A stretch of 29,362 bases of DNA. Source: a virus. Made by a program: the position numbers and the translations under genes. Under the pieces are notes generated by a model. The model was not told where the DNA came from, did no database searches, and saw only the letters and a list, made by a program, of their open reading frames with translations. The stretch lies in IMG/VR virus record IMGVR_UViG_3300051212_000254, positions 1-29,362 of that record; one strand, written 5' to 3'. Positions within the stretch are counted from its first letter, which is position 1. Each line of letters opens with the position of its first letter. Positions 1-29,099 of this stretch are shown piece after piece.

Positions 1-3000
1 GAAGATCCATTCTATCTTCAACACGCTGTGCTGCCACAGCAGTATTCTTAACAATGTCTACTAATTTTTCTTTCAAATACTTAAATGCTTCAACAGTTGC
101 ATCCTTCTGTGCACCTACTACCTTACTGGCTTGGGCACGGAAATATGCACGAGCAGCAGTAATTGTACGGAAGTTACTGTTAAACATCATGTCAAAACGT
201 ACTGCATCAATAATACTAACAATATCTTCTTGACAATCAGCTACACTATAATCAAGTGTTGGGAAGCGATCATTAATATAAGTTGTGATAGCTAACTTAA
301 CAGTATTTTCAGCATTGTTCATTAAAGTACTTGCTGCTACAAGATCTGGATCTACCCAAGTTGTTGTAGCTAATGTTTCAGTTGGATCAGATAAAGTGTC
401 ATCAATATATTTTACAATATCAAGTATACGATCTCTTGCATGATCAGCCGCAGTAGAGTCACCTGCACTGCCACTCTTATTCTGTTCAAGAGTATACAGA
501 GCTACTTTTTCAAGTATGGCGTCTCTTACTTCTTCAAACACAGCAATACTTGCATCCTTTTGATTAGCTAATACTGCTTGAGCACCTGCAATACCACGAT
601 AGTATGCATTAGCTGCTAATTGAGATCTATAATTACTACCAAACATCATGTCAAAACGTACTGCATCAATTACTGCATCAATGTCTTGATTACACTCATC
701 TTGAATGCTTGTACCATTTTGTGTTGGAGCTGTTCCACCAACATTTAAGTAATTAATACTTGGGAATTTGTCTGCCATTAATGTTGTAACATTATTTTTA
801 ACTGCGGTTCTAAATGAACCAGCATCTATAGCAGTGCTCACAGCTACTAAAGTTGAATCAACCCAAGCTGTTGAGGGCTGTGCTAATGCTGTTGGAACTG
901 TTCCTGCATCATCATCGATCTTAGCAATTACAATGTCTACAATCAATGACTTTGCCTTAGCGGATGCTGTACCTGCTGCATCTGCTGTACCAGCACGCTG
1001 AACTTCTCTATTTTGCTGTTGACTTCTTGTAAATGTTAGACCAGTTGTTGAACCTTCCACTGTGGCAATAGCTGTACCGTCAAGATTAACTAATTTAAAC
1101 TCTGTTGTACTAGCTACACTTAACACCTTATAAGACTTTGTAGTAACTGTAACTTGATCAGTTAGGCCTACAATAGCTGCTGCGCCACTGAAAGTGCCTG
1201 TCTTAGCAACTGTAATTCTATCACCTGGTAACAATTCAACTGCTACAGAAGTAGTAAATGTACCATCTGTAGTGAGAGCCTTAGCTTCTACCCCTGTTAA
1301 TGTTGAACTTGCTAACTTAGTTCCTGATCCAACTACCTTTAATACATTAGCCAAATATTTAAATGCTGCTTTTGTTGCATTTAATTCATCTGTATCATTA
1401 CCAAGAGCAGCATTTGCATCTGCACCTACTGCATATGCATCACCTGCAATATGAGTAGCTTGATTACCACCATATGTAATATCATATAGTACTGCATCAA
1501 TTAATAGTTCAACATCTCTCTCGCACTTAACTTTGTTATAGCCAGATGGAGGACTATTGTTTTCAATATATGCTGTAGTTTCTGCAACAAGGAATCTTCT
1601 ATTACTGCTAATGTTTTTAACAGCATGGAAGTAATTTGCATCACCTGCATGAGTACCTGTAGCAGTTGGTTTTGGCATTAAGAATGGTCTTTCTGGAGTA
1701 AAACCTTGTCCATCTTTAATTATTTTATTTAGAAGATCGAAACTTGCATTTATTCTATTCTTAGCCTCAAACTTATTACCACTTGGTTTTACATCTTTCA
1801 GTTGTACAACCTGTGCAACCACTTCCTTAAGTCTTTCATAAGCAGCCACAGTTTGAATGACCTGCTTTGGAATTGTTGACTTAGGAGTTACTGCACCGTC
1901 AAAGTAAGCAATAGCTGCCTGTGTTGTATCAACATTACCACCATATAACAAATCATAACATAGTGCGTCAATTAAGAAACCAACGTCACGACTACATTTA
2001 TCTTTGTTATAGGCATAATTCATGTCTACAAAATCACTTACAGCATTTTTTAATTTGTTAACTGTAGCTGTTGCTGCTAATAATGTATTAAACTTAAGAA
2101 TATTAGCATCAACCCATGCTGTATCTGGTGTGTCAACTGAATGTGGTGTTTGATGAATATTAGTTGTAAAATCAAAATTACTTGGGTTATCAATATAATC
2201 TCTGATCAAATCAACTAATGCCACTGCACGAGCTGCATCTGTACCTGCACCTGCTGTAATCTTAGCAAAGGCCACTGTACCTGCTGCTGCTGTTGCACCT
2301 GCACCTGCTGCTGTGGCTACAAATACTTCACCAACTGCTGGATCAGCATCTGCACCAAGATTAGTCCAATCTGCATCACTGGTTGTTCCCTTGTCTACGA
2401 TTCTATAAGTCTTACCTACTACAATCTTGTTTAGAGGATAAACTTGAGTATTACTTGTGTTTAATAACGCAGCATCACCTTCAGCAACTTGTTCAATAAA
2501 TGTCTTAAATTGTTCGTAAGCATCTCTTGTTAAAGTTTGCTCATTTGAGCCAAGTGCTAATAATACATCACTATTACCACCGTAATATGCACGGGCTGCA
2601 ACTAATGTTTCAAGATTACCACCATAAGTTAAATCATAATATACAGCATCTAAAATATATTCAATGTCACGACGGCAAGCTGTTTGATCATATGATACAC
2701 CACCTTTGTTTAACTCAATCCAAGTGATTAATCTGTCTTCTAAGAACTCACGATTAGCTTCAATTGTGTCACGCACAGCCTTAATATCTGCAACAAACGC
2801 ATTGTCTGTACCAGCTGTTGGTAATGGGAAGCTATAAACTGGTTCAACTGCTGGACCATTCTCAAGTATACTAAGAATAATATCCATGCTACGACTTACA
2901 CGTTGAATGCTTGCGCTTTCTGCTGTTGTTGGATTATCTGGATCTACAGCTTTAACAATTTCTAATAACTTAGTTTTCAAGTATTGGAAACTGGCTAATG

Positions 3001-6000
3001 TAGCAACTTTCTGATCCTTAACCACTGTGCTTGACATAGCACGATAGTAGCTGCGACCAGCAACAATACTACGGAAGTTACTGTTAAACATCATATCATA
3101 GCGTACAGCTTCTACAACATAGCCTACATCACGACGACATTTTTCTCTGTCATAACCAAATAATACATAGTTGTCATTAACGTAATCAGTTACAGCAGTT
3201 TTTGTAGCTTCTTTACCTGCTTGTAATTGAGCAAAACTCTTAGCAAGAGCTGGATCCACCCAATCAATAGCTGGTGTGCTAGCTACAGTTGTCTTATCTG
3301 TAACCGCTGGACTTTCATTTACACTGTCGTCGATAATCTTGATTATTAAATCAACACATGTGCCCATTTCCTTGGCTGCTGTTGCACTACCATCACTACC
3401 ATTTGGACTGCGTACTTGAGTAGTAATATTACCAACTGTTGGAGTCCATGTTAAATCTTGTGCTACATTTTGTACTACTGTCTTAAGATATTCATATGCT
3501 CTTAATGTGGCACTTACTTCATCCATTTGTGTTCCACTTGGATCAAGTTGACTTACTGTGCCAACCACATAACTTTGACCAGCTACGAAACTTTCAAGTG
3601 TACCACCATAAGTTGTGTCATAATATAAAGCATCTAAAATCAAGTTAAGATCACGTCTGCATTTTTCTACATCAAATCCAGCTGGTAAAGAATAATCTGC
3701 TGGAACAATCTTTTCAAATCTCATGGTTGTTGTTAGACCTGATGTACTGGTTGTAAGTACTGCACTGCCATCAAGGTTAACAATCTTAAAACCAGGTGTG
3801 TAAGAATAAACAACACCATTGACTGTTACGTTGCTGGTATCTTCTACTGTGGCAACCTTGTACACACTTGGACTATTATATCCACTGATTGTGGCACCAG
3901 AGAACATTTTTCCACTTATTCTAATCAAATCACCAACTGCAAGAGTTGTAAATGTAGTTTGACCAGTTACTGGATTTATACTAAATGAACCATCTGTTGA
4001 GAAAGCACCTACTGTGCCTTTAAACTTCACACCACCTTTGAGTAACTCAAGTCCTGGGGTATTGATATATGTAAGTACATCATCAATAATGAACTCTCTA
4101 TTCTTTTCAACAAGATCACGTGAACGCTTATATTCTACTGCACGACCTTTCTCAGGGAATGGCATTCTATATTTAGGAGTAACATCCGCACCATTATCTA
4201 ATATATCAATAATGATGTCCATATTGCTTTGAACACTATTGACTGCTAAAGAATTACTCTTAACGAGCTCAGTGACTAATTTTCTTAAGTGTTTGAATGC
4301 ACCAATAGTAGCTAATTTCTGATTACCTGTTACTGTCTTAGCATTTGCTCTTAGATATGCACGACCAGCACTAATACTACGGAAGTTACTGATAAATGCA
4401 GTATCATAAGATAGTGCGTCCATGATAAATTCAACATCACGAGCACACTTATCTCTGTCAAATTCATTTAAAGTGAAGTTCGCATCAATAAAGGCTGTAA
4501 TTTCGTCTTTAATGAATTCTACGTTGTTACGTAAAATATTTACAGCGGTCCAACGATCAAGGTCTTCCTCATTATTTCTAACTGGAATTGGATATGTTAA
4601 TGCTGTACCATAGCCATCAATTGGGCTATAAGCTGTATTATTAACAAGAGCATTAGTCACAATCTGACCAAGATCATTAACTCTTGCACCGTCAAGAATA
4701 GCAATAACGATATCAAATCTTGTGCTAATTTCTGTCTTTGCACTTGGAGCTACAATTCTTGCTAAAGTAATAGCTTTGGCTGCTTTTAAGCTGGCAACTG
4801 TTTGTACTTTCTGTGCACCAACTACTTCACTGGCATAAGCACGTAGATAGCTAATAGCTGCTGTAACTGTTTTATAGTTACTACCAAAAATCATATCGCT
4901 TAAAATAGCGTCAAGAATTAAACCAACGTCTCTGTAACATTTTGGCTTGTTAAAGCTAAAGTTATCAAAGAAGCTGTTAGCCATAAACTTAATTGTTTCT
5001 GTCTTAATCTCTTCTTTAGCTGCAAGTACTGCATCACGAATAGCCTTGTAACTGGTTGGCTGATATGTAACTGTTGGATAACCAGTTGTTGTTGTACCAA
5101 GTGTTAGTTCTGTCGCTGTGTTAACACGAGCGAACTTGGTATCACCATCGCTAATTGTATACCAATTTTGATTGATATAAGCAATCATTTCAGCACGAAT
5201 AAAATCTCTATTAGCCATCAATAAATCAAATGCACGAATCTTATTAACGTCTGTACTGGCTACAAGTTGAATTGGCTGCTTGAGTCTTTGAACACTGTCT
5301 TCAGCATTGTTTGGACCTTCTACAAGAATTTCATTAATGATATCAACAAGATTACCAAGAGCTACAACTTCTGCACTGGTAGCAGCTGGGAAATCTGTAC
5401 GCTGTGGTACAGCTTCTTGCCAAGGATTTGGAGTTGGGCTACATGTAATCACATCACGTACAAGTTCCTTCAAATACTTGTAAGCATTTACAGTCTGCTT
5501 AATCTGATTTGGAAGTACGCTCTTAAGTACATTTGTTTCCTCATTAAAGTCATAATAGTAAATGCCTGCTGTAACAGCTTGACGATTGCCACCATGTACG
5601 AGGTCAAAACAAATACTGTCAACAATAAAGCCAACATCACGAGCACATTTTACTCTGTCATAATCAAATCCAGGAAATGCTCTACCTAAATATGTGATCA
5701 CATCATCCTTGATGTTTGACTTGTTAGCTTGAAGTGTATCAAATGCAGCTTCAAGGTCAGTATCATTTAAACGTTTGCCGTTTGGTTGAATAAAGTCACT
5801 TGTTCCTACAATTTCATTCTCTAAACCTTTTAGGAATACACTGAACAAACCACCAAGCTTGTTAACTTGTGTTTGATTTGTTGGTGTTAAACCCACCTTA
5901 ACCTGTGGTGTATTTGTAGCTGCTTCAATTGTATCTAAAATTACTACACGTTGAGCAAATAATTGAGCACGACCATAAGCATCAATAGTAGCAGGAATTT

Positions 6001-7993
6001 CCTCTGATGCTAAAAGTTGACTTAAACCACTAGCATAATTGTAATAACGCTTTGCTGCATCCACTGTTTGACTATTACCACCATAAGTAATGTCATAGCA
6101 AATAGCATCAATAGCATATCCAATATCTCTACCACAGGTAGCTTGTTTAGCTTCATTAAAACCATAAACTACAATTTGTGGCCAATTTTTCTTAACATAA
6201 TCTATAACTTCAGCAATAACAAATTTCTTATTTTTCTGTAAATTATTAACAAGATCTAATACAGCTTGATCAGTATCTTGTAAACCTGGATATGTTAGAG
6301 CATACGCTGCATCTGTTGGATCAAGTAATTTATTTAGATATGTAACACCTGTAGTTGCACTATCTGGTAATAGAGCTGTTGTTATGATGCCAAAATTAGT
6401 TTGAACTCTTGCTAATAGTGTAGCATCTTCTTGTACGATAGGAGCAATTTGATCTCTTACAAATCTGTATGCTTCAATAGTTTCTGTACGCTGATCATTA
6501 ACTCCAACAAGTTCTGCTGCATTACTCTTTAGATATGTGATAGCAGCTTTAATTGTTTGATAATTTGTACCAAGTATAATATCATTAGCTACTGCTTCAA
6601 TAACATAACCAATATCACGTTTGCACTTTGATGTAATATAAGCAAGATTTGGATAGGAACGCTTAAGGAAATCAATTGTAGCATCCTCAATTTGAGCCTT
6701 TCTATCTAAAATAGTTTGTCTTAAAATTTTCCACTCTGGTTCTGCTGCATCAAGATCAGGTCCAATGATTAATGTTGGACTTAAAGGACCTTCTTCAACA
6801 ATTCTGCTAATAATACTAAATTCTTCTTTAACTATTCGCTTGGCTGTAGCTGATGCACTGGCAGCTGTCAACACTGTAGCGGCAGCTACCTGAGCACGTT
6901 TGATAGCAGCGGCTGTTTGAGCCTGTTGTTGTATACCAGTTGTAATATCATCTTTAGCCCAATAACGTAGACCAGCAAATGTACTTTGAGTAGCACCTTC
7001 ATATAATAAGTCAAATGCTAAACTGTCTACCACAAGACCATTGTCTCTGTCACATGTAGTTTGGTTGTAGTTGGCAAATAATACACCATCACCAATGTTT
7101 GGACGCTTGGCTAAATTCTTAAATGTGATCTGACGACCAGCTGACTTCTTAACAACACCACGATATAGTGGATCACTGGCTCCACGACTTACAAGACCGT
7201 AGTTACCAAATGAGCTGTTTGACAAGTTAACTGAACAGAAACCACCGTTCTCACACATAAAGCTAATGTCACAGCAAATTGTAAAAATAGATACAAGCTG
7301 AGTATTACCTCTGTTCAACATGTGAATACCAATACCACCTTGATTGTACTGAGTAAACGCATCACAAACCATTGAACGTAGACCAGTTGTCACTGCACCG
7401 TCAACACGCATACCTGTACCAGTGGTTGTAATACTTGTTACCGCTTGGGTGTATGGTGATGTTACGATCTCACCAGCACTACCGTCTGGTGGGAAACATA
7501 CTGCCGCACTTGGGGCAATATGGCCTTTAAAATTCATACAGAAGATATAAGCGCCATTGTATACCCAGAAGATATCCTTGGTTGGATTCTTTGGACGTAC
7601 TGTGGTATTACGCAAGTTGTCACCAACAACTGACACACGAGCTGGAACACGCAATGGATTGTCTTCAATATATTCCCCACTCTTTAAGAATATAGTTGTG
7701 CCAGGTGTCGCTATGCTCAGTGCCTTCTTTAGTGTCAAAAAAGCCTGACCTAATGTCTTTCCGCTGTTGCTATCATCACCATTTTTAGCCACATAAAGTA
7801 CATTAGGTACTTCCATTGCTCCAATTTCAATGATTTTCTGAATAGCTGCGAAGCCTTCTGGTTGTTTAATTTCTTGTTTTGTAAACAGTTTACCATCGGC
7901 GGTGTTAAGTGCTAATTCGCCAAGGTCAATGCTATCTAGTGATGGTACTTTGCCAGGTATATCACTACGCTTAAATCTAATATTTGTGCTCAT
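1..7993 (-). CDS. Giant virion fibre/adhesin-like protein, C-terminus beyond window (at least 2664 aa)
   Basis: The reading frame is open from an ATG at 7993 to the left edge. I checked it at 13 conserved Cys codons from 7054 to 235, all in the same frame. The start follows AAAGGA at good spacing. Residues 1-40 (FKRSDIPGK, DLGELALNTADGKLF) look like phage fibre N-termini. Residues 65-300 look like a pectate-lyase-type beta-helix (NGDDSNSG, PGTTIFLKSGEY, VVGDN). From residue 314 onward there are at least 13 repeats of 143-277 residues. Each is headed by C-x-[RQE]-D-[VIL]-x(3)-[IVA]-[IVLM]-[DE]-[AS] and usually F/Y-G-[GS]-N, followed by Ala-rich helices (A-G-x-A-Y, a helical KxLK stretch, VDIV..ILD). 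Long units carry beta-rich inserts. It is the last leftward gene, behind two other fibre genes. A tail fibre or adhesin role is inferred; I do not recognise a named family for the repeat. Confidence 0.85.
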   Translation of the reverse strand, partial: MSTNIRFKRSDIPGKVPSLDSIDLGELALNTADGKLFTKQEIKQPEGFAAIQKIIEIGAMEVPNVLYVAKNGDDSNSGKTLGQAFLTLKKALSIATPGTTIFLKSGEYIEDNPLRVPARVSVVGDNLRNTTVRPKNPTKDIFWVYNGAYIFCMNFKGHIAPSAAVCFPPDGSAGEIVTSPYTQAVTSITTTGTGMRVDGAVTTGLRSMVCDAFTQYNQGGIGIHMLNRGNTQLVSIFTICCDISFMCENGGFCSVNLSNSSFGNYGLVSRGASDPLYRGVVKKSAGRQITFKNLAKRPNIGDGVLFANYNQTTCDRDNGLVVDSLAFDLLYEGATQSTFAGLRYWAKDDITTGIQQQAQTAAAIKRAQVAAATVLTAASASATAKRIVKEEFSIISRIVEEGPLSPTLIIGPDLDAAEPEWKILRQTILDRKAQIEDATIDFLKRSYPNLAYITSKCKRDIGYVIEAVANDIILGTNYQTIKAAITYLKSNAAELVGVNDQRTETIEAYRFVRDQIAPIVQEDATLLARVQTNFGIITTALLPDSATTGVTYLNKLLDPTDAAYALTYPGLQDTDQAVLDLVNNLQKNKKFVIAEVIDYVKKNWPQIVVYGFNEAKQATCGRDIGYAIDAICYDITYGGNSQTVDAAKRYYNYASGLSQLLASEEIPATIDAYGRAQLFAQRVVILDTIEAATNTPQVKVGLTPTNQTQVNKLGGLFSVFLKGLENEIVGTSDFIQPNGKRLNDTDLEAAFDTLQANKSNIKDDVITYLGRAFPGFDYDRVKCARDVGFIVDSICFDLVHGGNRQAVTAGIYYYDFNEETNVLKSVLPNQIKQTVNAYKYLKELVRDVITCSPTPNPWQEAVPQRTDFPAATSAEVVALGNLVDIINEILVEGPNNAEDSVQRLKQPIQLVASTDVNKIRAFDLLMANRDFIRAEMIAYINQNWYTISDGDTKFARVNTATELTLGTTTTGYPTVTYQPTSYKAIRDAVLAAKEEIKTETIKFMANSFFDNFSFNKPKCYRDVGLILDAILSDMIFGSNYKTVTAAISYLRAYASEVVGAQKVQTVASLKAAKAITLARIVAPSAKTEISTRFDIVIAILDGARVNDLGQIVTNALVNNTAYSPIDGYGTALTYPIPVRNNEEDLDRWTAVNILRNNVEFIKDEITAFIDANFTLNEFDRDKCARDVEFIMDALSYDTAFISNFRSISAGRAYLRANAKTVTGNQKLATIGAFKHLRKLVTELVKSNSLAVNSVQSNMDIIIDILDNGADVTPKYRMPFPEKGRAVEYKRSRDLVEKNREFIIDDVLTYINTPGLELLKGGVKFKGTVGAFSTDGSFSINPVTGQTTFTTLAVGDLIRISGKMFSGATISGYNSPSVYKVATVEDTSNVTVNGVVYSYTPGFKIVNLDGSAVLTTSTSGLTTTMRFEKIVPADYSLPAGFDVEKCRRDLNLILDALYYDTTYGGTLESFVAGQSYVVGTVSQLDPSGTQMDEVSATLRAYEYLKTVVQNVAQDLTWTPTVGNITTQVRSPNGSDGSATAAKEMGTCVDLIIKIIDDSVNESPAVTDKTTVASTPAIDWVDPALAKSFAQLQAGKEATKTAVTDYVNDNYVLFGYDREKCRRDVGYVVEAVRYDMMFNSNFRSIVAGRSYYRAMSSTVVKDQKVATLASFQYLKTKLLEIVKAVDPDNPTTAESASIQRVSRSMDIILSILENGPAVEPVYSFPLPTAGTDNAFVADIKAVRDTIEANREFLEDRLITWIELNKGGVSYDQTACRRDIEYILDAVYYDLTYGGNLETLVAARAYYGGNSDVLLALGSNEQTLTRDAYEQFKTFIEQVAEGDAALLNTSNTQVYPLNKIVVGKTYRIVDKGTTSDADWTNLGADADPAVGEVFVATAAGAGATAAAGTVAFAKITAGAGTDAARAVALVDLIRDYIDNPSNFDFTTNIHQTPHSVDTPDTAWVDANILKFNTLLAATATVNKLKNAVSDFVDMNYAYNKDKCSRDVGFLIDALCYDLLYGGNVDTTQAAIAYFDGAVTPKSTIPKQVIQTVAAYERLKEVVAQVVQLKDVKPSGNKFEAKNRINASFDLLNKIIKDGQGFTPERPFLMPKPTATGTHAGDANYFHAVKNISSNRRFLVAETTAYIENNSPPSGYNKVKCERDVELLIDAVLYDITYGGNQATHIAGDAYAVGADANAALGNDTDELNATKAAFKYLANVLKVVGSGTKLASSTLTGVEAKALTTDGTFTTSVAVELLPGDRITVAKTGTFSGAAAIVGLTDQVTVTTKSYKVLSVASTTEFKLVNLDGTAIATVEGSTTGLTFTRSQQQNREVQRAGTADAAGTASAKAKSLIVDIVIAKIDDDAGTVPTALAQPSTAWVDSTLVAVSTAIDAGSFRTAVKNNVTTLMADKFPSINYLNVGGTAPTQNGTSIQDECNQDIDAVIDAVRFDMMFGSNYRSQLAANAYYRGIAGAQAVLANQKDASIAVFEEVRDAILEKVALYTLEQNKSGSAGDSTAADHARDRILDIVKYIDDTLSDPTETLATTTWVDPDLVAASTLMNNAENTVKLAITTYINDRFPTLDYSVADCQEDIVSIIDAVRFDMMFNSNFRTITAARAYFRAQASKVVGAQKDATVEAFKYLKEKLVDIVKNTAVAAQRVEDRMDL
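182..211. repeat. 30-bp direct repeat, copy 1
   Basis: An exact 30-bp match to 641-670, 459 bp away, covering the codons of the V-R-F-D-M-M-F motif in the last two units visible in the giant gene. A partly overlapping 25-bp stretch (166-190) also recurs exactly at 3070-3094. Identity at synonymous positions suggests recent duplication or conversion between F-x-S-N units. Confidence 0.9.
235..7054 (-). repeat. At least 13 protein repeats headed by C-x-R-D inside the giant gene
   Basis: The Cys codons of successive units start at 7054, 6625, 6136, 5647, 4939, 4447, 3661, 3139, 2677, 1996, 1525, 694 and 235 (residues 314, 457, 620, 783, 1019, 1183, 1445, 1619, 1773, 2000, 2157, 2434 and 2587). 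Spacing is mostly 143-174 residues, with 227-277 where an extra domain is inserted. Two flavours recur: one with YGGN (for example YDLTYGGNLET at 2677) and one with F-x-S-N-[FY] (for example YDMMFNSNFRS at 3139). DNA identity is low except between neighbouring or same-flavour copies, so most of the array is old. Confidence 0.9.
641..670. repeat. 30-bp direct repeat, copy 2
   Basis: Second exact copy of the 30-bp stretch at 182-211, in the repeat unit whose Cys codon starts at 694. Confidence 0.9.
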
Positions 7994-21709: not shown

Positions 21710-23437
21710 TTACATTGGAGCTGGAGCTGGAGCGGCTGTCATACCCATGCCTGTATCCATACCAGGCACAGCCCCTGGCGCCTGGGTCATATCTTCTGGA
21801 CCGGCTGTATCAGCAGCCATTTCAAGATCGCTGTCAATACCTGCTGCACTAAGTCCGGCACCACGTAGTTCACCGCTGGCATCTGTGCCAGTAATAGGTG
21901 CCATACCTTTTTCCTGACGCCATAGGTTTTCATTTTCTGCCATCTCTTCCTCACTTAATCCGAGGAATCTTTTTAGTGCAAAACGCTTACTAATATATGG
22001 AACTTGTTGTATCGTATTAAATGTGTTGATACGTTGTCCATCTACTTCTGCTTGACGATAAGCAGCAAAGTTTTGTGGAGGTTGAAATTTTAACTCAAAT
22101 AAACTGGTATCAATATTGACACCTTTGTAGTATAAAAATCTTTTAAATTCCTCATCAAATACACTGGTTAGTAGACTCTGCAAACGCATACAATAATTAT
22201 TAAAACGTAGTTCTTGAATATACGCTGTACCTACACGACCATCGTTATATTGTTGCTGTCCATCATCAGCACCAGTAGGTAGATAACTACTGGGTATACG
22301 CAATGCTCTAAATAATTTATTTGTAAAATATTTTAAATCTTCAATTTCACCAAGATTGGTGCCTCCTGGAAGTGTTTCTACTTTACTGCCTCTACCACCT
22401 TCAGTTTGTGGAAAGAAATAATCCTCATTAATACTCAACGGGTTGTAAGCACTGTCAATAATATTCATACCACCGCCATTTTGACTTGGAATACGACGTT
22501 GATGTATTTCATTCTTTACACGCTCAACAAAAGCCATGGCCATATGTGATGGCATATTTCCTACATCAATATAAAAAATTCTACGTTCTGGAGCACGCTG
22601 TATACGATAGATTAAAATAGCATCTTCAAGTAATTCTTTTTGTTTGTATACCTTAAATACTTGTTCAAGTAAACTGGTTCCAAAAGGATAATTGTTATCA
22701 AGTCCCTCACTTAAACTTAAATGAACCACATGAGCTGCATCGATAGCTACCTCATTTTCATTAATACTAAAACGATCTCCATATTGAGTAGGGTAAGCAC
22801 CAGTAGCACCTCGGGCCATTCCTCCACCAGCTACATAATTACTACCTCTTGTGTTACTTTGATATGGACTATTTTGTATTTGAGTAGCTACAAGATTTTG
22901 AAAGTTTGGGTTTAAATCACGTATTACATACTGTTCTGGCTTTTTTCCATCACTTTCATTAACAATAATCTTGGTTAATTTAGCTGGATCGACATAAAAC
23001 CATTTTTGAGTTTCTGGATCTCTAATAAAAATTGCATCACCAAATTTAAATGTATTTCTTACTATTCTAAAAAATCTTGTGTCAAATTGTTGTAGTTTAA
23101 ACCACTGTTGTAAGTATTCACGCAATACACGAATTTCACTATTAGTAGCTCTATCCTTAAAACTTAAACTAAATGTTGTATTATTTTCTCTATTTTTTTG
23201 AGTACAAAATTCAGCAAGAATATCTAGTGCAGCATTAACTTCAGGATCCATGTCCATAGTGTCATATTGCATGTAACGTTCAATTCTATTTGGGCTACCT
23301 GTATAAATGTCAGGTAGAAAGCTACTATAATTGCTACGAGCTGGTCCTGGTTTATTGCCATTACTTAGTCCACTAATTACGCTTAAACCAGATTGATTAC
23401 TTGTATCAACTGGAGTAAAATATCTTCGCCAACTCAT
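21710..23437 (-). CDS. gp20: Portal vertex protein, T4 gp20-like, 575 aa
   Basis: Forms the dodecameric ring at the head-tail vertex through which DNA is packaged and ejected. Recognisable portal segments are YMQYDTMDMDPEVNAALDIL near residue 55, FRIVRNTFKFGDAIFIRDP, HVVHLSLSEGLDNNYPFGTS, LLEQVFKVYKQKELLEDAI, YRIQRAPERRIFYIDVGNMP, then KYFTNKLFRALRIPSSYL and LTSVFDEEFKRFLYYKGV. Length is near T4 gp20 (524 aa), with an extra Ala/Pro/Met/Gly-rich tail (residues 520-575). Starts at 23437 after AAAGGG, 3 nt after the stop of the tape-measure-like gene. Confidence 0.96.
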   Translation of the reverse strand: MSWRRYFTPVDTSNQSGLSVISGLSNGNKPGPARSNYSSFLPDIYTGSPNRIERYMQYDTMDMDPEVNAALDILAEFCTQKNRENNTTFSLSFKDRATNSEIRVLREYLQQWFKLQQFDTRFFRIVRNTFKFGDAIFIRDPETQKWFYVDPAKLTKIIVNESDGKKPEQYVIRDLNPNFQNLVATQIQNSPYQSNTRGSNYVAGGGMARGATGAYPTQYGDRFSINENEVAIDAAHVVHLSLSEGLDNNYPFGTSLLEQVFKVYKQKELLEDAILIYRIQRAPERRIFYIDVGNMPSHMAMAFVERVKNEIHQRRIPSQNGGGMNIIDSAYNPLSINEDYFFPQTEGGRGSKVETLPGGTNLGEIEDLKYFTNKLFRALRIPSSYLPTGADDGQQQYNDGRVGTAYIQELRFNNYCMRLQSLLTSVFDEEFKRFLYYKGVNIDTSLFELKFQPPQNFAAYRQAEVDGQRINTFNTIQQVPYISKRFALKRFLGLSEEEMAENENLWRQEKGMAPITGTDASGELRGAGLSAAGIDSDLEMAADTAGPEDMTQAPGAVPGMDTGMGMTAAPAPAPM

Positions 23438-23440
23438 AAA

Positions 23441-26400
23441 TTACCCTTTGTATAGATTACCGCTTAAAGATTTAACGGCACTGATCTGTTGTCTGGAAGT
23501 TTCGTCAACCTTAGTGACTAAGGACCTCATGCTACTATTTAATGTATCTAAACTTTTGACCACATCGTCCAGAGTTTTTTGTTCCTTCTTATTTGTAGAA
23601 GTAGTCGTCTCTGTGGATTTTTTATCCTTATCTGATTCTTTAGTGTCTTTCTTAGATTTATCATCCTTAGCTGCATCTACTTTTTCATCTTTCTTAACTG
23701 CACCTGGAATTGACTTTGCATCAGTTTTTGGTTTAGCAACAGGCAACCCATCTGGGCCTAAGGTAAATCCATCCATTGTTATAGGTTCAAAATTACTTTT
23801 AGTCACAGGTTCCTTAGCTGTGTTTGCTTTAGAACTTACAGCAAAGTCAATTCCTGCTACACTAGCATCACCTGGTCCAGATGCATAAGCAGCATCCTCT
23901 GCCATACTATCAGTTGGTATCTGATTTCTTAATTCGTCAAGTAAATTTGTACCACTATAATCATCCCCTGCATCATCACCACCTATAGATTCACCGCCTT
24001 CGCCATATTCATCTTCTTCAAATTCTTTGAGACCGTGAACTTGATCCATAAGATTTTGTACAGCATCATTTACTGCTTCACCGCCTTGGCCGTATTCATC
24101 CTCAGCAAAACTACTATCTAACTCACCACCAATAGCTTCACCACCTTCTCCGTATTCATCCTCTTCGAACTCTTTTAGTCCCTGTATTTGATTTGTTAAA
24201 TCTTCAAGAGCACCATATTCATCTTCAAGAAAGGCACTATCCATTTCTCCACCAATAGCTTCACCACCTTCCCCATACTCATCCTCTGCAAATTCATCAC
24301 GATCAGGCATATCGAACATTTCATTTATTTCCATCATAAATGTTTCTCTTGCCTTTTCTGCTGCATCCGTGACACCGCCCATGTCACCAATCAATTCTTG
24401 ATTAGCCATCATAAATTGTTCATTTAACAAATCATGAGCTGCCTTTGATATATCAAGCTTTTCCTCATCAGCACCTTTCATTAATTCTAATTCTTTACGT
24501 GCTTGTTGGTCTAATCTTTCAAGTTCTAAATCATCAGCTAAAATTTCTATATTTTTAATCATGTCAAGTTGTTCTTGACGTTTGGCATAATCTTCTTTAG
24601 CTCCTGCGCTGATCATTTCACTTTCAGCAAGACGAGCTTCTTCTTCCTCTGTTAGTTCCCTTTCGTTTTTCTTTTTCTGTAAATCTGCTACAATTGCATC
24701 ATGCTTTTCTATAATTTCAGCATCAATACCATGTTGACGTTTTAGAGCAAATGTCATAAATTCTTGATTATCCTTACTCATACCTTGATAATCTTCTATA
24801 AATTTTTTCTGTTCATCTGTGAATTTACTCTTAAATTCACTTTGCTGACCCTGCATTTCTTGGATAGGAATCATTTCCTTAAATACACCTTGGAATTGTT
24901 CAGCAGCTTTTTCTAATTCATCTTCTTGATCTTTTACAAACATATTAACAAGACTTGGTAATTCTTTTTCTATCATATTATCCACTGCTCTTACACTGGC
25001 TTGCGTAGGAATTTGTTTGTTTAATTCTATTTGATTATCCACTGCTCTTACACTGGCTTGCGTAGGCTTCGTTTCAGTCTGTTGACCTTCAATGGCCATT
25101 CTACGTACTTGATCTGCTGTAAGTTTAGGAGCTTCCTTTTCTTTAGCTTTTTCTGCCGTAGTCTTATCTTTATCCTTATCTTTATCCTTGTCTGTACCTG
25201 ATGTATCTTTCTTATCAGCTGGTTGTGGACTAGCAGCTACTTGTGTTAAAGTTTTAGGCCAATTAGTAATTTCTACCTTGCTTGTAGTTGTAGCAATATC
25301 TTTAGCTATTTTTTGTAAATCAATACCTGCTAACTTGCCCATCTCAGGTTGCTTGCCCGTAGAAGTTGTTGTCATCAGCTTGTTTAATACTTCAGCCATT
25401 GCGTCTGATCTAACATTACTAATCAAAGTTTTTTGTTGTTCAGGAGTAAGTACAGTTTCGCCTTTGTGCAATAAAGCCATTATGTCCTTAGGTTCTACAG
25501 CCATACCTGTTTCACCTAAGGTACCACCAGCACGACCAGTTTCAGGTTTTTTCTCAGCTATAAGTTCTTTTATATTTGCTGTATCTATTTTAACTTCCTT
25601 AGCATTGATCATATTACCAGCTAATCCTAATGAACTACTAGCAAAACTTGTAATACCTTTAATCAATTCACTGCCTACTTCGCCTGCCACTTTCTTTATA
25701 ATAAAATCGCCGCCACCTTTGCCTAACATAGCCTCATATGCTTCCTGATATGTACGTGGAGCTTTATCAGGACCACCTAATTCTTTTTGTCGAGCTTGAG
25801 CTAAACTTTGCCTTGCCATTATATCCTTAGGATCATCAGTGGGTTTAGTTGTACTAAACTTGTCAGAAGCAGCTAATAAAGCTTGATTAAGTTTGGGATC
25901 TTTGTTTACTCCACCTACTATTCTATTCATAAAAGCAGCATTGGCAGCTTCTAATTGTTGTTTACCAGTAATTAAGGCTGAAGTAATACCTACTCTTGCT
26001 TCTTGTTCTGCTTTTATAGCAGCCTTTTGTTTGTTCAATGCCTCTGTAACATTTTCTCTGGCTATGCCTTCTTCCTTCATAGTTTTCTGCATACCATGAT
26101 AGGCTGCGTCATTGGCCTTCATCAAGCTTCGTGAAGCTTCTCCTACATCACCAGTAGCATAAATTGTAGCCCGAAGAAAAGCTTTATCACGCTGCAACTT
26201 CATCATTTCTATTCCAGCACGTTCAGTATAAGTTTTACTGAGTTCCCCGTTACCTTTAGCTAATTCTTGAGCACTCTTAGCAGCTTCTTGACCAGCTTGA
26301 CCACTCATAGCAAATTGTGCCTGAGCTCCTTTGCTCATCACTGTACCAGTAGCTACTAACTCCTTGTACATATCCCCCATGCCTTTTGCAGCCATCTGAG

Positions 26401-27049
26401 CATAGTTATTCTTAAATGCTTCTCTTGCTTCTGCTTCTTTTTCTGCACCTTGTTCTAAGCCTATTTCTCTAAACTTAGCTTCAAGTTTCATATCAGCTTG
26501 GGCTTTTTTAAGATTATCTTCTTGTTCTTTTCTTGAAACTCCAGTTAATTGAGTAAGTTGATCTAACTCTAAAGCAAACTGTGCAGCACTGGCCGCTGCC
26601 TTCTTCTGTCCTTCAACACTGTTATCAAATGTACTTTTTTGGAATCCGACTTGTAAAGCTAAAATTTCATTAAGTTCACCAGCAGTAAATCCCATCTGTC
26701 TAAGATTTTCTGCTACTCCACTGGTATGAAATTCCTTGGCAAACTTGACAAATTCTTGACTACCTTTGCTTACACTACCACCAAAACTGGCAAATACTTC
26801 TGCATTATCCTTGAGCAATTCAGTGAATTTGTCCAATGGCATGCGTACATCAGACGCAGCAATAGCAATTTTTAACATATCATTGCCAAATCTATTGCCA
26901 GTATTGCTTAACTGCTCAAAGGTATTCATCAACTGCTGTACTGGTGCTACAGCCTGTTTTGCCTTTTCTCCAAACTTAGAGGCACCATCACTTGCAGATT
27001 TAAATCCGCCAGCTAATTTGTCCATCATTCCTTTATCTGGTTCTGCCAT
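23441..27049 (-). CDS. Tape-measure-like tail protein, 1202 aa
   Basis: Likely sets tail length and sits inside the tube. The first 450 residues are long alpha-helices rich in Ala, Lys and Glu (GKLAGG-like start, FEQLSNTGNRFGNDMLKIA, LDQLTQLTGVSRKEQED). Near residue 520 is A-L-L-H-K-G-E-T-V-L-T-P, a [LV]-H-x-G-E-x-V motif frequent in phage tape measures and tail-tip proteins. After a Lys/Asp linker (DKDKDKDKDK, about residue 620) comes a 19-residue tandem duplication (about 661-691), then coiled coils. Four acidic EDEYG-type repeats follow at about 919-1023, then a Lys-rich tail. Start at 27049 with a weak SD. A tail-assembly chaperone gene lies divergently next to it. Alternative: another large internal tail protein; gp29 orthology is not shown. 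Confidence 0.6.
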   Translation of the reverse strand: MAEPDKGMMDKLAGGFKSASDGASKFGEKAKQAVAPVQQLMNTFEQLSNTGNRFGNDMLKIAIAASDVRMPLDKFTELLKDNAEVFASFGGSVSKGSQEFVKFAKEFHTSGVAENLRQMGFTAGELNEILALQVGFQKSTFDNSVEGQKKAAASAAQFALELDQLTQLTGVSRKEQEDNLKKAQADMKLEAKFREIGLEQGAEKEAEAREAFKNNYAQMAAKGMGDMYKELVATGTVMSKGAQAQFAMSGQAGQEAAKSAQELAKGNGELSKTYTERAGIEMMKLQRDKAFLRATIYATGDVGEASRSLMKANDAAYHGMQKTMKEEGIARENVTEALNKQKAAIKAEQEARVGITSALITGKQQLEAANAAFMNRIVGGVNKDPKLNQALLAASDKFSTTKPTDDPKDIMARQSLAQARQKELGGPDKAPRTYQEAYEAMLGKGGGDFIIKKVAGEVGSELIKGITSFASSSLGLAGNMINAKEVKIDTANIKELIAEKKPETGRAGGTLGETGMAVEPKDIMALLHKGETVLTPEQQKTLISNVRSDAMAEVLNKLMTTTSTGKQPEMGKLAGIDLQKIAKDIATTTSKVEITNWPKTLTQVAASPQPADKKDTSGTDKDKDKDKDKTTAEKAKEKEAPKLTADQVRRMAIEGQQTETKPTQASVRAVDNQIELNKQIPTQASVRAVDNMIEKELPSLVNMFVKDQEDELEKAAEQFQGVFKEMIPIQEMQGQQSEFKSKFTDEQKKFIEDYQGMSKDNQEFMTFALKRQHGIDAEIIEKHDAIVADLQKKKNERELTEEEEARLAESEMISAGAKEDYAKRQEQLDMIKNIEILADDLELERLDQQARKELELMKGADEEKLDISKAAHDLLNEQFMMANQELIGDMGGVTDAAEKARETFMMEINEMFDMPDRDEFAEDEYGEGGEAIGGEMDSAFLEDEYGALEDLTNQIQGLKEFEEDEYGEGGEAIGGELDSSFAEDEYGQGGEAVNDAVQNLMDQVHGLKEFEEDEYGEGGESIGGDDAGDDYSGTNLLDELRNQIPTDSMAEDAAYASGPGDASVAGIDFAVSSKANTAKEPVTKSNFEPITMDGFTLGPDGLPVAKPKTDAKSIPGAVKKDEKVDAAKDDKSKKDTKESDKDKKSTETTTSTNKKEQKTLDDVVKSLDTLNSSMRSLVTKVDETSRQQISAVKSLSGNLYKG
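23981..24292 (-). repeat. Acidic EDEYGEGGE repeats in the tape-measure-like protein
   Basis: Four copies of [EA]EDEYG[EQ]GGE[AS][IV] are encoded at about 24245-24292, 24121-24169, 24071-24112 and 23981-24025, with a shorter EDEYGALEDL at about 24209-24235. They alternate with helices of the type LMDQVHGLKEFEEDEYG. The unit is strongly acidic and Gly-rich, unlike the Lys-rich flanks. Confidence 0.9.
24977..25066. repeat. Exact 33-bp tandem-type repeat (period 57 bp)
   Basis: 24977-25009 and 25034-25066 are identical over 33 bp. The 57-bp period is 19 codons and duplicates T-Q-A-S-V-R-A-V-D-N in the tape-measure-like protein. Perfect DNA identity points to a recent in-frame duplication. Confidence 0.92.
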
Positions 27050-27081: not shown

Positions 27082-27112
27082 CGTTCCATATACTTTATTT
27101 ATTGGAGCTATG

Positions 27113-27952
27113 ATGACTGGTCCAAATCCATTACAAAAATACTTTCGCCAACCTAAAATCTATATTGATTTACCCAGTAAAGGCATTTTCTACAACAAGG
27201 AAAGTTTAGATGGTATAGCTAATAACATACCAGTTTTTGGTATGACTGGTATGGATGAAATCATCATGAAAACTCCTGATGCTCTTTTCAGTGGCGAAAG
27301 TACTGTAAAGGTTGTTCAAAGTTGTTGCCCTTCAATAAAAAATGCTTGGGATATGCCCAGCATTGACGTTGATGCTTTATTAGTCAGCATAAGGATAGCC
27401 AGCTACGGAGCTAAAATGGAAGTTAATCATAGATGTCCTAATTGTCAAGCCATAAATGATTATGATATAGACCTAAGTTCTGTTCTTGGATATTTGACTA
27501 GTTTAACTTACGATGGAAGAATACAATGCGATGATATTACCATAGTGATTAGACCATTACGCTATGAAGAAATAACAAAATTTAATATTGAAAATTATAA
27601 ACTACAAAAAATGCTTAATCAATTGGCTAAGATGGAAAGTTCAGGTGATGATAATGGTACAATTAAAAAACAAGACGAAGTGTATGCACGCATTGCAGAA
27701 ATGCAATTGGAACTATTTGAAATAAGCGTTGTAAGAATTGAAACACCTGAAGGTATAGTTGACAACAAAGAATTCATACAAGAATGGATTCGTAATTGTG
27801 ATAAAGAATATTTTAAAACTATAAAATCAAAATTAGAAACTAATAAAAACCAGTGGGATATACCGTCTCAAACTGTAGAATGTCCAGAATGCAATCATCA
27901 TAGTGATGTAGTTATTACAATGGATCAAGCCAGTTTTTTCGGAAGAGGCTAA
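27113..27952 (+). CDS. gp26: gp26-like baseplate/tail assembly factor (0-frame product, 279 aa)
   Basis: T4 gp26 acts in baseplate hub assembly and in tape-measure handling. The N-terminus KIYIDLPSKGIFYNKES and the central INDYDIDLSSVLGYL-type region fit the T4 baseplate gp26 family. Two Cys pairs, C-P-N-C (C109/C112 counting from 27110) and C-P-E-C-N-H-H (C258/C261), could form a zinc ribbon. The start at 27113 is preferred over the ATG at 27110 because TGGAG then sits 5 nt upstream. The frame ends at 27952, but a slippery T TTT TTC at 27934 joins it to the next frame. It is the only rightward gene, driven by its own late promoter. Confidence 0.75.
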   Translation: MTGPNPLQKYFRQPKIYIDLPSKGIFYNKESLDGIANNIPVFGMTGMDEIIMKTPDALFSGESTVKVVQSCCPSIKNAWDMPSIDVDALLVSIRIASYGAKMEVNHRCPNCQAINDYDIDLSSVLGYLTSLTYDGRIQCDDITIVIRPLRYEEITKFNIENYKLQKMLNQLAKMESSGDDNGTIKKQDEVYARIAEMQLELFEISVVRIETPEGIVDNKEFIQEWIRNCDKEYFKTIKSKLETNKNQWDIPSQTVECPECNHHSDVVITMDQASFFGRG

Positions 27953-28173
27953 TTTTCATCCCGGATTCTGAGTTAGAAGTTTTTTTTGACACTTACGAAC
28001 AACAAATTAAAAGACTTAAGGATGACATTTTTACCATAAGTTGGTATATGCGTGGAGGTGTAACTGCACATGAATTATTTCATATATACACTTCAGAAGA
28101 TCGTAGCATAATGAATGCTTTAATTAAAAGCAATATAGAGTTAACTAAGAAAAGTGGACTGCCTTTAGTCTAA
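27113..28173 (+). CDS. gp26-gp51-like -1 frameshift fusion (extension of the gp26-like gene)
   Basis: After decoding T-TTT-TTC (27934-27940) and slipping back one base, translation continues from 27940 for 77 codons to the TAA at 28171. The extension (RLKDDIFTISWYMRGGVTAH then ELFHIYTSEDRS) carries W-Y-M-R-G-G-V, which I recall from T4 gp51, the product of the gene that follows 26 in T4. The -1 frame is open from 27907, and I find no ATG, GTG or TTG ahead of the Met inside W-Y-M-R-G-G-V, so independent initiation is unlikely. Fusion length is about 353 residues. This mirrors the gpG/gpGT frameshift of lambda tail assembly genes. A sequencing error in the T run is the main alternative. Confidence 0.65.
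27934..27940 (+). promoter_or_regulatory. Slippery heptamer T TTT TTC (-1 frameshift site)
   Basis: It has the X XXY YYZ form in the frame of the gp26-like gene (...AGT TTT TTC GGA...), 9 nt before its stop. Both tRNAs can re-pair after a one-base slip. I could not define a convincing downstream pseudoknot; CTAA (27949-27952) and TTAG (27973-27976) are only a 4-bp pairing. Confidence 0.7.
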
Positions 28174-29099
28174 TCAAAAGACTTAGTTATAGTTTTAGGT
28201 CTATCAGTTTTATCAAACGGGTCTGCGAAACCTCCACCAGGAAGACCTTTACCTGTAAAATAGTTAACAGCACCTTTAGCCATTGTTGCTATACCCTGAA
28301 CAGCTTCTGTTCCAAATTCTATTACCTTTTCTAATGCGTATCCTGCTGATGTAAATAAACCCATGATTACTGGAAAAGTTTCAGCAAACCATTTTTTACC
28401 AGCATCAGTACGAAACCATGCCATAGCAGCAACTTCGCCTACACGGGCAACATGTCCCAACCAACGTCTACTAACTTCAGCAGCTATAGGAAATCCAGTA
28501 GCCTGTATCATTTTTGCTATAGTTTTACTACCAATTTTACCTATAGCCCCAACAACTTTGGGCATAATAAGTCCCATAATAAATTCACCATTAAGTTTGG
28601 CCAATTGTTCTTCATAATTTGGGTCTTTAGGATCTAATGCCCACCTACTCATCAAATAGTCATAAGTTCCATAAAGTACACTTGCTGTTGTAGCAATTGT
28701 TATACCTAAGTTAGCCAGTTTTTCTTGAGCTGCTGTAGCTGCCTGCATATTATTCACTATAGCTGCTTGATGATTTTTTGCTCCTTGCCTTATTATAGCT
28801 TTTTTCATACTATCAATACGCCACTTACCAACAGTTGAATTTTGACTAAAGCCAATTTTATTCCACCAAGTACCAGCATATTGTTGTGCTGCTTGTCTTT
28901 GAGCAGCTACTTGTCCAGGTATTTTAGGTATAGGAACTCGTGAAACATTTGCAGGTAGTGTACGTGATCCACGCCATAATCCACCTAAAGCTCTAGCACC
29001 CGCACCAATCAGTTTACCAGTTCCGATAGCAGCTCCAGCAGCTAACGTTCCTATGACTTCATCTAATTCTTCTTCTGTCAACAAATCATTGATCTTCAT
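28170..29099 (-). CDS. Hydrophobic glycine-rich protein with capsid-targeting-like N-terminus, 309 aa
   Basis: Begins M-K-I-N-D-L-L-T-E-E. In T4, internal (ejected) capsid proteins carry a roughly 10-residue targeting sequence ending in [IL]-x-E, such as that of IPIII (MKTYQEFLAE); L-T-E at residues 7-9 fits. After it come Gly/Ala-rich hydrophobic stretches at about 13-42, 128-149, 172-197 and 243-261 that could insert in or contact a membrane, and the tail is polar (DPFDKTDRPKTITKSFD). No enzyme motif is visible. Its stop codon overlaps the end of the frameshifted gp26-gp51 frame on the other strand (convergent). The SD is weak; AATAAATA ends 4 nt before the start. Alternative: a membrane or baseplate protein. 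Confidence 0.65.
   Translation of the reverse strand: MKINDLLTEEELDEVIGTLAAGAAIGTGKLIGAGARALGGLWRGSRTLPANVSRVPIPKIPGQVAAQRQAAQQYAGTWWNKIGFSQNSTVGKWRIDSMKKAIIRQGAKNHQAAIVNNMQAATAAQEKLANLGITIATTASVLYGTYDYLMSRWALDPKDPNYEEQLAKLNGEFIMGLIMPKVVGAIGKIGSKTIAKMIQATGFPIAAEVSRRWLGHVARVGEVAAMAWFRTDAGKKWFAETFPVIMGLFTSAGYALEKVIEFGTEAVQGIATMAKGAVNYFTGKGLPGGGFADPFDKTDRPKTITKSFD

Follow-up and report, generated by a model that had tools for sequence, protein, structure and literature searches.

Reportedly, the tail assembly chaperones of T4-like phages have been identified as the products of genes 26 and 51, in work ascribed to Vladimirov, Gautam and Davidson (2022, Virology 566:9). PMC12846349 credits Vladimirov 2022 with poly-T slip sites in T4-like TAC-N genes, and frameshifting is described in other T4-like groups. 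Some T4-like phages do without the frameshift and encode the two forms in a short gene and a long, fused one (PMC10885494). The tail assembly chaperone locus of phage Adele (Vandenendeviridae/Andersonviridae) has a conserved poly-T (GTTTTT) slip site and an uninterrupted -1 frame, with the downstream ORF annotated as a separate gene (PMC12846349). In phage lambda, many short (gpG) and few long (gpGT) chaperones sit on the tape measure, and neither is found in the virion (PMC5009743).

The stretch of viral DNA analyzed here (the window; IMG/VR record IMGVR_UViG_3300051212_000254, 29,362 nucleotides) contains a gp26-like gene that very probably encodes a tail assembly chaperone in two forms, the short TAC-N and, through programmed -1 ribosomal frameshifting, the long TAC-NC (Table 1). 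The gp26-like ORF matches PF12322 (E-value 8.6e-19; 68.5 bits against a cut-off of 24.5) and the phrog_150 "baseplate hub" family (E-value 7.5e-20), and by these matches the N-terminal part of the long form is a member of the gp26 family. Its cysteines are invariant among relatives. The AlphaFold model of TAC-N, built from 39 aligned sequences, has a pLDDT of 87.6. Foldseek returned no PDB match for this model at an E-value below 0.001, and only chance matches came from sequence searches of solved structures with the profiles of gp26 and the extension. Superposition of the HK97 tail assembly chaperone (2ob9_B) on residues 1-105 of the model gave a Z score of 5.9 over 90 residues with an rmsd of 6.8, which is within the background range, and a fold shared between 2OB9 and the N-terminal part of TAC-N is only suggestive.

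The last codons of the gp26-like ORF are AGT TTT TTC GGA AGA GGC TAA, in which the heptamer occupies the X XXY YYZ phase and 12 nt separate it from the end of the stop codon. Upstream of the slip site the -1 frame is closed by a double stop about nine codons away; from the slip site it is open for 79 codons, to a TAA at 28171-28173. No ATG, GTG or TTG occurs in this frame before the ATG at 28048. The initial annotation had given the end of the gp26-like frame and the position and phase of the heptamer correctly to the base, and its description of a -1 frame that is open to 28173 and carries a W-Y-M-R-G-G-V motif with no start codon ahead of it was verified in the sequence. A T8 run inside the extension (27980-27987), unseen in relatives, is a possible second slippage site.

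Table 1. Features of the predicted chaperone locus and its flanking genes in the window
Feature	Coordinates	Strand	Basis or remark
gp26-like gene, putative short tail assembly chaperone (TAC-N), 280 aa, two CxxC pairs	27110..27952	+	PF12322, phrog_150, invariant cysteines, AlphaFold
0-frame TAC-N stop	27950..27952	+	9 nt beyond heptamer
Slippery heptamer T TTT TTC, in gp26 phase	27934..27940	+	same heptamer and phase across relatives
-1 frame extension (TAC-C), 79 aa; predicted long form (TAC-NC) of ~353 aa	27934..28173	+	pN/pS, AlphaFold
W-Y-M-R-G-G-V motif, holding the first -1 frame start codon (ATG 28048)	28042..28062	+	W, M, R, G, G invariant in 38 non-redundant extensions
Divergent neighbor, 1202 aa, candidate tape-measure protein (inferred)	23441..27049	-	position, length variability of relatives' counterparts, virion detection of CBB counterpart
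Convergent ORF, 309 aa, no family match	28170..29099	-	overlaps stop of extension by 4 nt

A tblastn search with the gp26-like protein returned 62 records, nearly all from large phages, at less than 35% identity, and a search of named phages with the extension alone recovered Atu_ph07 and Phosso, where the match occupies the corresponding position and likewise lies in the -1 frame. Eleven isolated jumbo phages were compared (Atu_ph07, Phosso, PA5oct, BF, Munch, XaC1, PBECO4, RaK2, SCTP-2, CBB and Vibrio 2.275.O), with identities of 23-30%. All eleven genes contain a single TTTTTTC, which is in slip phase and lies 6-36 nt ahead of the last base of the stop codon. The -1 extension begins with F-F-R in ten of them and with F-F-Q in PA5oct, and a P-E-E or similar motif follows about 10 residues into the extension in most. 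A profile scan of viral contigs yielded 80 loci, 78 with a complete gene; every one of these 78, like the window, has an in-phase TTTTTTC and an open -1 extension, which is 78-79 aa long wherever the contig allows. When the extension alone served as the query, TTTTTTC was in phase at its first residue and a gp26 frame lay upstream in 33/33 loci, some on contigs shared with the gp26 profile scan. The initial annotation had named as contrary evidence a run of five or seven T that gives one continuous frame, and no continuous single-frame fusion was found among the relatives. The conservation of T TTT TTC, which it had proposed as a check, was seen in all but the most distant relatives examined.

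The closest contig with a gp26 gene measures 399,796 bases. Among more distant phages, the extension of LIS04, SP-15, BRock and immuto (L096-L099) seems to lie in the +1 (or -2) frame just past the gp26-like stop, without TTTTTTC in slip phase, and the tape measure gene is adjacent in three of the four; the direction of the frameshift may have changed during evolution. Two slip variants were seen, T TTT TTT in Stenotrophomonas phage CM1 (L101, near 3244-3307) and T TTT TTA in RHph_I1_18 (L100, near 3072-3112), both with an open -1 extension. A "frameshift" match in phage PaBG was discarded, as it concerned dnaX.

The window encodes a T4-like portal protein, gp20 (21710-23437, minus strand; PF07230, E-value 5.5e-112), which places it in a T4-related large phage. 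A further minus-strand ORF (2-7993) continues past the edge of the window; its product has at least 2664 aa and matches tail-fibre and virion structural families (phrog_5342 and phrog_4527) in many repeated stretches. Counterparts of the 1202-aa divergent neighbor occupy the same place in relatives and are long (~626-2202 aa), and in the excerpt of the CBB virion proteome its counterpart CBB_251 is represented by 29 peptides. From its position, this length variation and the detection in CBB virions, the product of 23441-27049 is likely the client of the chaperone. Apart from a marginal match to Pfam Phasin_2 the protein has no family match, and BLASTP and phmmer detected no homology to known tape measures or to the RaK2 counterpart. 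Near its C-terminal third the protein contains internal repeats that are acidic (about F-x-E-D-E-Y-G-E-G-G-E). On the other side of the locus, the initial annotation had stated that the extension ends within 4 nt of the convergent stop, which agrees with the 4-nt overlap, but its suggestion that this spacing is tuned was rejected, as about ten relatives have the same overlap and it reflects ordinary compact packing.

The database name of gp26, "baseplate hub", would fit a different role, in which both forms are made by frameshifting and serve as part of the baseplate hub rather than as tape-measure chaperones. We consider this role unlikely. The gene lies close to the annotated tape measure gene in several phages; the latter is directly downstream in LIS04, one small ORF intervenes in SP-15 and immuto, and two intervene in RHph_I1_18. 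T4-like 26/51 have reportedly been re-assigned as chaperones. In addition, the CBB proteome excerpt lists CBB_251 and does not list the gp26-like CBB_250, an absence shared with the portal protein CBB_252.

Selection on the -1 frame bears on whether the downstream ORF is instead a separate small gene that is translated from its own start by re-initiation or coupling. Between the gp26 stop and the first start codon, pN/pS is 0.31 in the -1 frame and 1.18 and 1.35 in the other two; past M39 the -1 frame value is 0.18. Stop codons within this interval occur in 0/40 sequences in the -1 frame and in 38 and 40 sequences in the other frames. Judged by this pattern of substitution, the stretch evolves as protein in the -1 frame only. 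Several database records do annotate a separate gene, and an ATG overlaps or adjoins the gp26 stop in Atu_ph07, Phosso and a few contigs. However, no start codon falls within the first 14 extension codons in 33 of 52 non-redundant loci (clusters at 90% identity), and both the universal TTTTTTC and the conserved FFR..L residues ahead of nearly all starts would be left unexplained. The AlphaFold model of the extension (pLDDT 89.1; 38 aligned sequences) has helices at residues 2-8, 11-38, 45-50 and 54-74, and initiation at 28048, which is residue 39, would remove the long, conserved helix 11-38. With no start ahead of 28048 in the window and protein-level selection on the stretch, entry from gp26 is the only route by which it could yield a conserved protein there. 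The separate start that the initial annotation had named as evidence against a frameshift is missing from the window, although some relatives do carry an ATG near the slip site. Independent translation of the downstream ORF is very improbable. A Pakpunavirus protein of 64 aa (D4N451) was listed in the fold search, and in PAK_P1 an ORF of 64 aa closely precedes the tape measure; neither is used as evidence here.

A shifted message could also arise by transcriptional slippage at the T6 run, since any homopolymer can slip with the same genetic result. Polymerase slippage usually needs longer runs, and the T8 run in the window's extension has no equivalent in relatives. The run always consists of exactly six T and then a C, and its codon phase is fixed, which is a signature of tandem slippage; the T of the adjacent codon is also kept: in the 52 clusters the codon before TTT TTC specifies seven amino acids (N, S, H, G, R, D and Y) and always ends in T. 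Based on the codon usage of the same genes, xxT TTT TTC would occur by chance throughout 16 clusters at below 50% identity with a probability of ~1e-16, treating the clusters as independent, which is true only in part. We give transcriptional slippage slightly less credence than a separate start. Assemblies often contain erroneous indels in T runs. A sequencing error, or gene decay through a single-base indel in the homopolymer, has virtually no chance of accounting for the locus and is refuted by the relatives: dozens of independent assemblies and isolated phages share the arrangement, purifying selection acts on the -1 product, and the gp26 product is conserved as well.

Possible stimulators of the shift were sought on both sides of the heptamer. 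In many loci the downstream sequence folds more strongly than its shuffles, with a mean z of -1.83 and z below -2 in 25/52 loci. One clade (L056, L057, L058, L059, L060, L062, L063, L065, L068, L074, L076 and L084) has a 10-bp hairpin that starts 6 nt past the heptamer (6-54 nt after it), with 96.7% of cells paired and three pairs changed on both sides in compensatory fashion. Its covariation score was reached by 0/500 shuffles and is above all slid controls. The same region is protein-coding, and part of its conservation is that of the coding sequence; the hairpin is a candidate frameshift stimulator, which the lineage of the window lacks. In the window no convincing stimulatory structure was found (z of +2.05 for 70 nt and -0.18 for 157 nt), so that slip efficiency there may rest on the slip site alone. 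An SD-like motif upstream of the slip was not found in 46/52 loci.

We hypothesize that most ribosomes would stop at 27952 and release TAC-N, while a minority would shift by one base backward at T TTT TTC, with the tRNAs on TTT and TTC re-pairing with TTT TTT. The slipped ribosomes would read CGG AAG AGG onward and produce TAC-NC with its predicted helical C-terminal domain of 79 aa. With an in-phase TTTTTTC that is conserved and a -1 frame under purifying selection, the locus would belong with the long forms made by -1 slippage. If the locus works as lambda gpG/gpGT does, the tape-measure protein would be coated with many copies of TAC-N and few of TAC-NC, the C-terminal domain would recruit the tail-tube protein, and both forms would leave before the tail is finished. 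We infer that the shift occurs, and with it some efficiency and a TAC-N:TAC-NC ratio, and that the products act as chaperones. Conservation lends strong support to the claim of the initial annotation that a programmed -1 shift, as in lambda G/GT, joins the gp26-like protein and a domain encoded downstream.

For T4-like phages this mechanism has been published before, and the window gene is a further case. The addition here is its uniform, base-exact conservation in RaK2/Atu_ph07-like jumbo phages, in whose records the locus is entered as two genes or the second one is left out. A further addition is the covarying downstream hairpin of one clade, lacking in the window. In most jumbo-phage records the second ORF is annotated from a later ATG, with loss of the F-F-R.. 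residues, or is omitted (RaK2 and PA5oct). Giant phages that are very divergent have kept a recoding signal unchanged to the base, and in many deposited jumbo-phage genomes (RaK2, PA5oct, CBB, Atu_ph07 and PBECO4) the annotation of an assembly protein is truncated or missing. The natural variants (slip sites with or without a hairpin, and lineages using another frame) provide a test set for relating slip efficiency to chaperone ratio and tail length.

The T4-like TAC-N/TAC-NC genes belong to the same family (PF12322/phrog_150), and in them, too, a poly-T slip site close to the 3' end leads into a -1 extension. T4 itself has two separate genes, 26 and 51, whereas the window phage and its jumbo relatives have one shifted gene with a WYMRGG-type extension. 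T4 gp51 is a paralogue of gp26 (BLASTP, 2e-6), is encoded on the opposite strand, divergent from gene 26, and matches phrog_150 nearly end to end, making it a full chaperone copy with its own TAC-N domain; TTTTTTC is absent from both T4 genes. The window extension holds no TAC-N copy, unlike the second gene of a T4-type pair. Alignment of the extension with the C-terminus of T4 gp51, which the initial annotation had proposed as a check, found no significant similarity (hhalign probability 0.6%, 23 columns, E-value 0.093), and a structure search of the extension lists ZZ1 gp51 at a TM score of 0.47 and an E-value of 5.4. The extension, which the initial annotation had labelled "gp51-like", has its true counterpart in the small "gp51" ORF of cyanophages; T4 gp51 is more than an extension. 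Syn9 and P-SSM4 have the identical TTTTTTC in phase and the same -1 frame, with an FFR start and an extension annotated as "gp51". Past the first 11 residues, similarity of the cyanophage extension to the window type is undetectable, and a long same-strand gene directly follows it; hhalign gave no significant match between the jumbo-phage extension and that of cyanophages or of T4 gp51. It is an even bet whether a T TTT TTC frameshift in the gp26 chaperone is ancestral and almost invariant in RaK2/Atu_ph07-type jumbo phages and their environmental relatives, as in cyanophages, with the covarying hairpin 6 nt downstream helping some clades, the separate 26/51 genes of T4 derived, and SP-15, LIS04, BRock and immuto having switched to the +1 or -2 frame.

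The Adele group and the window phage represent different families, and their likeness is one of locus layout (PMC12846349). Lambda gpG/gpGT are likened to the window gene by arrangement, with short and long chaperones made by -1 frameshifting beside the tape measure gene. To our knowledge no sequence relation between them is to be expected, and the lambda slip heptamer differs from that of the window. The lambda genes also lie upstream of their client, whereas the window gene is divergent from its presumed client.
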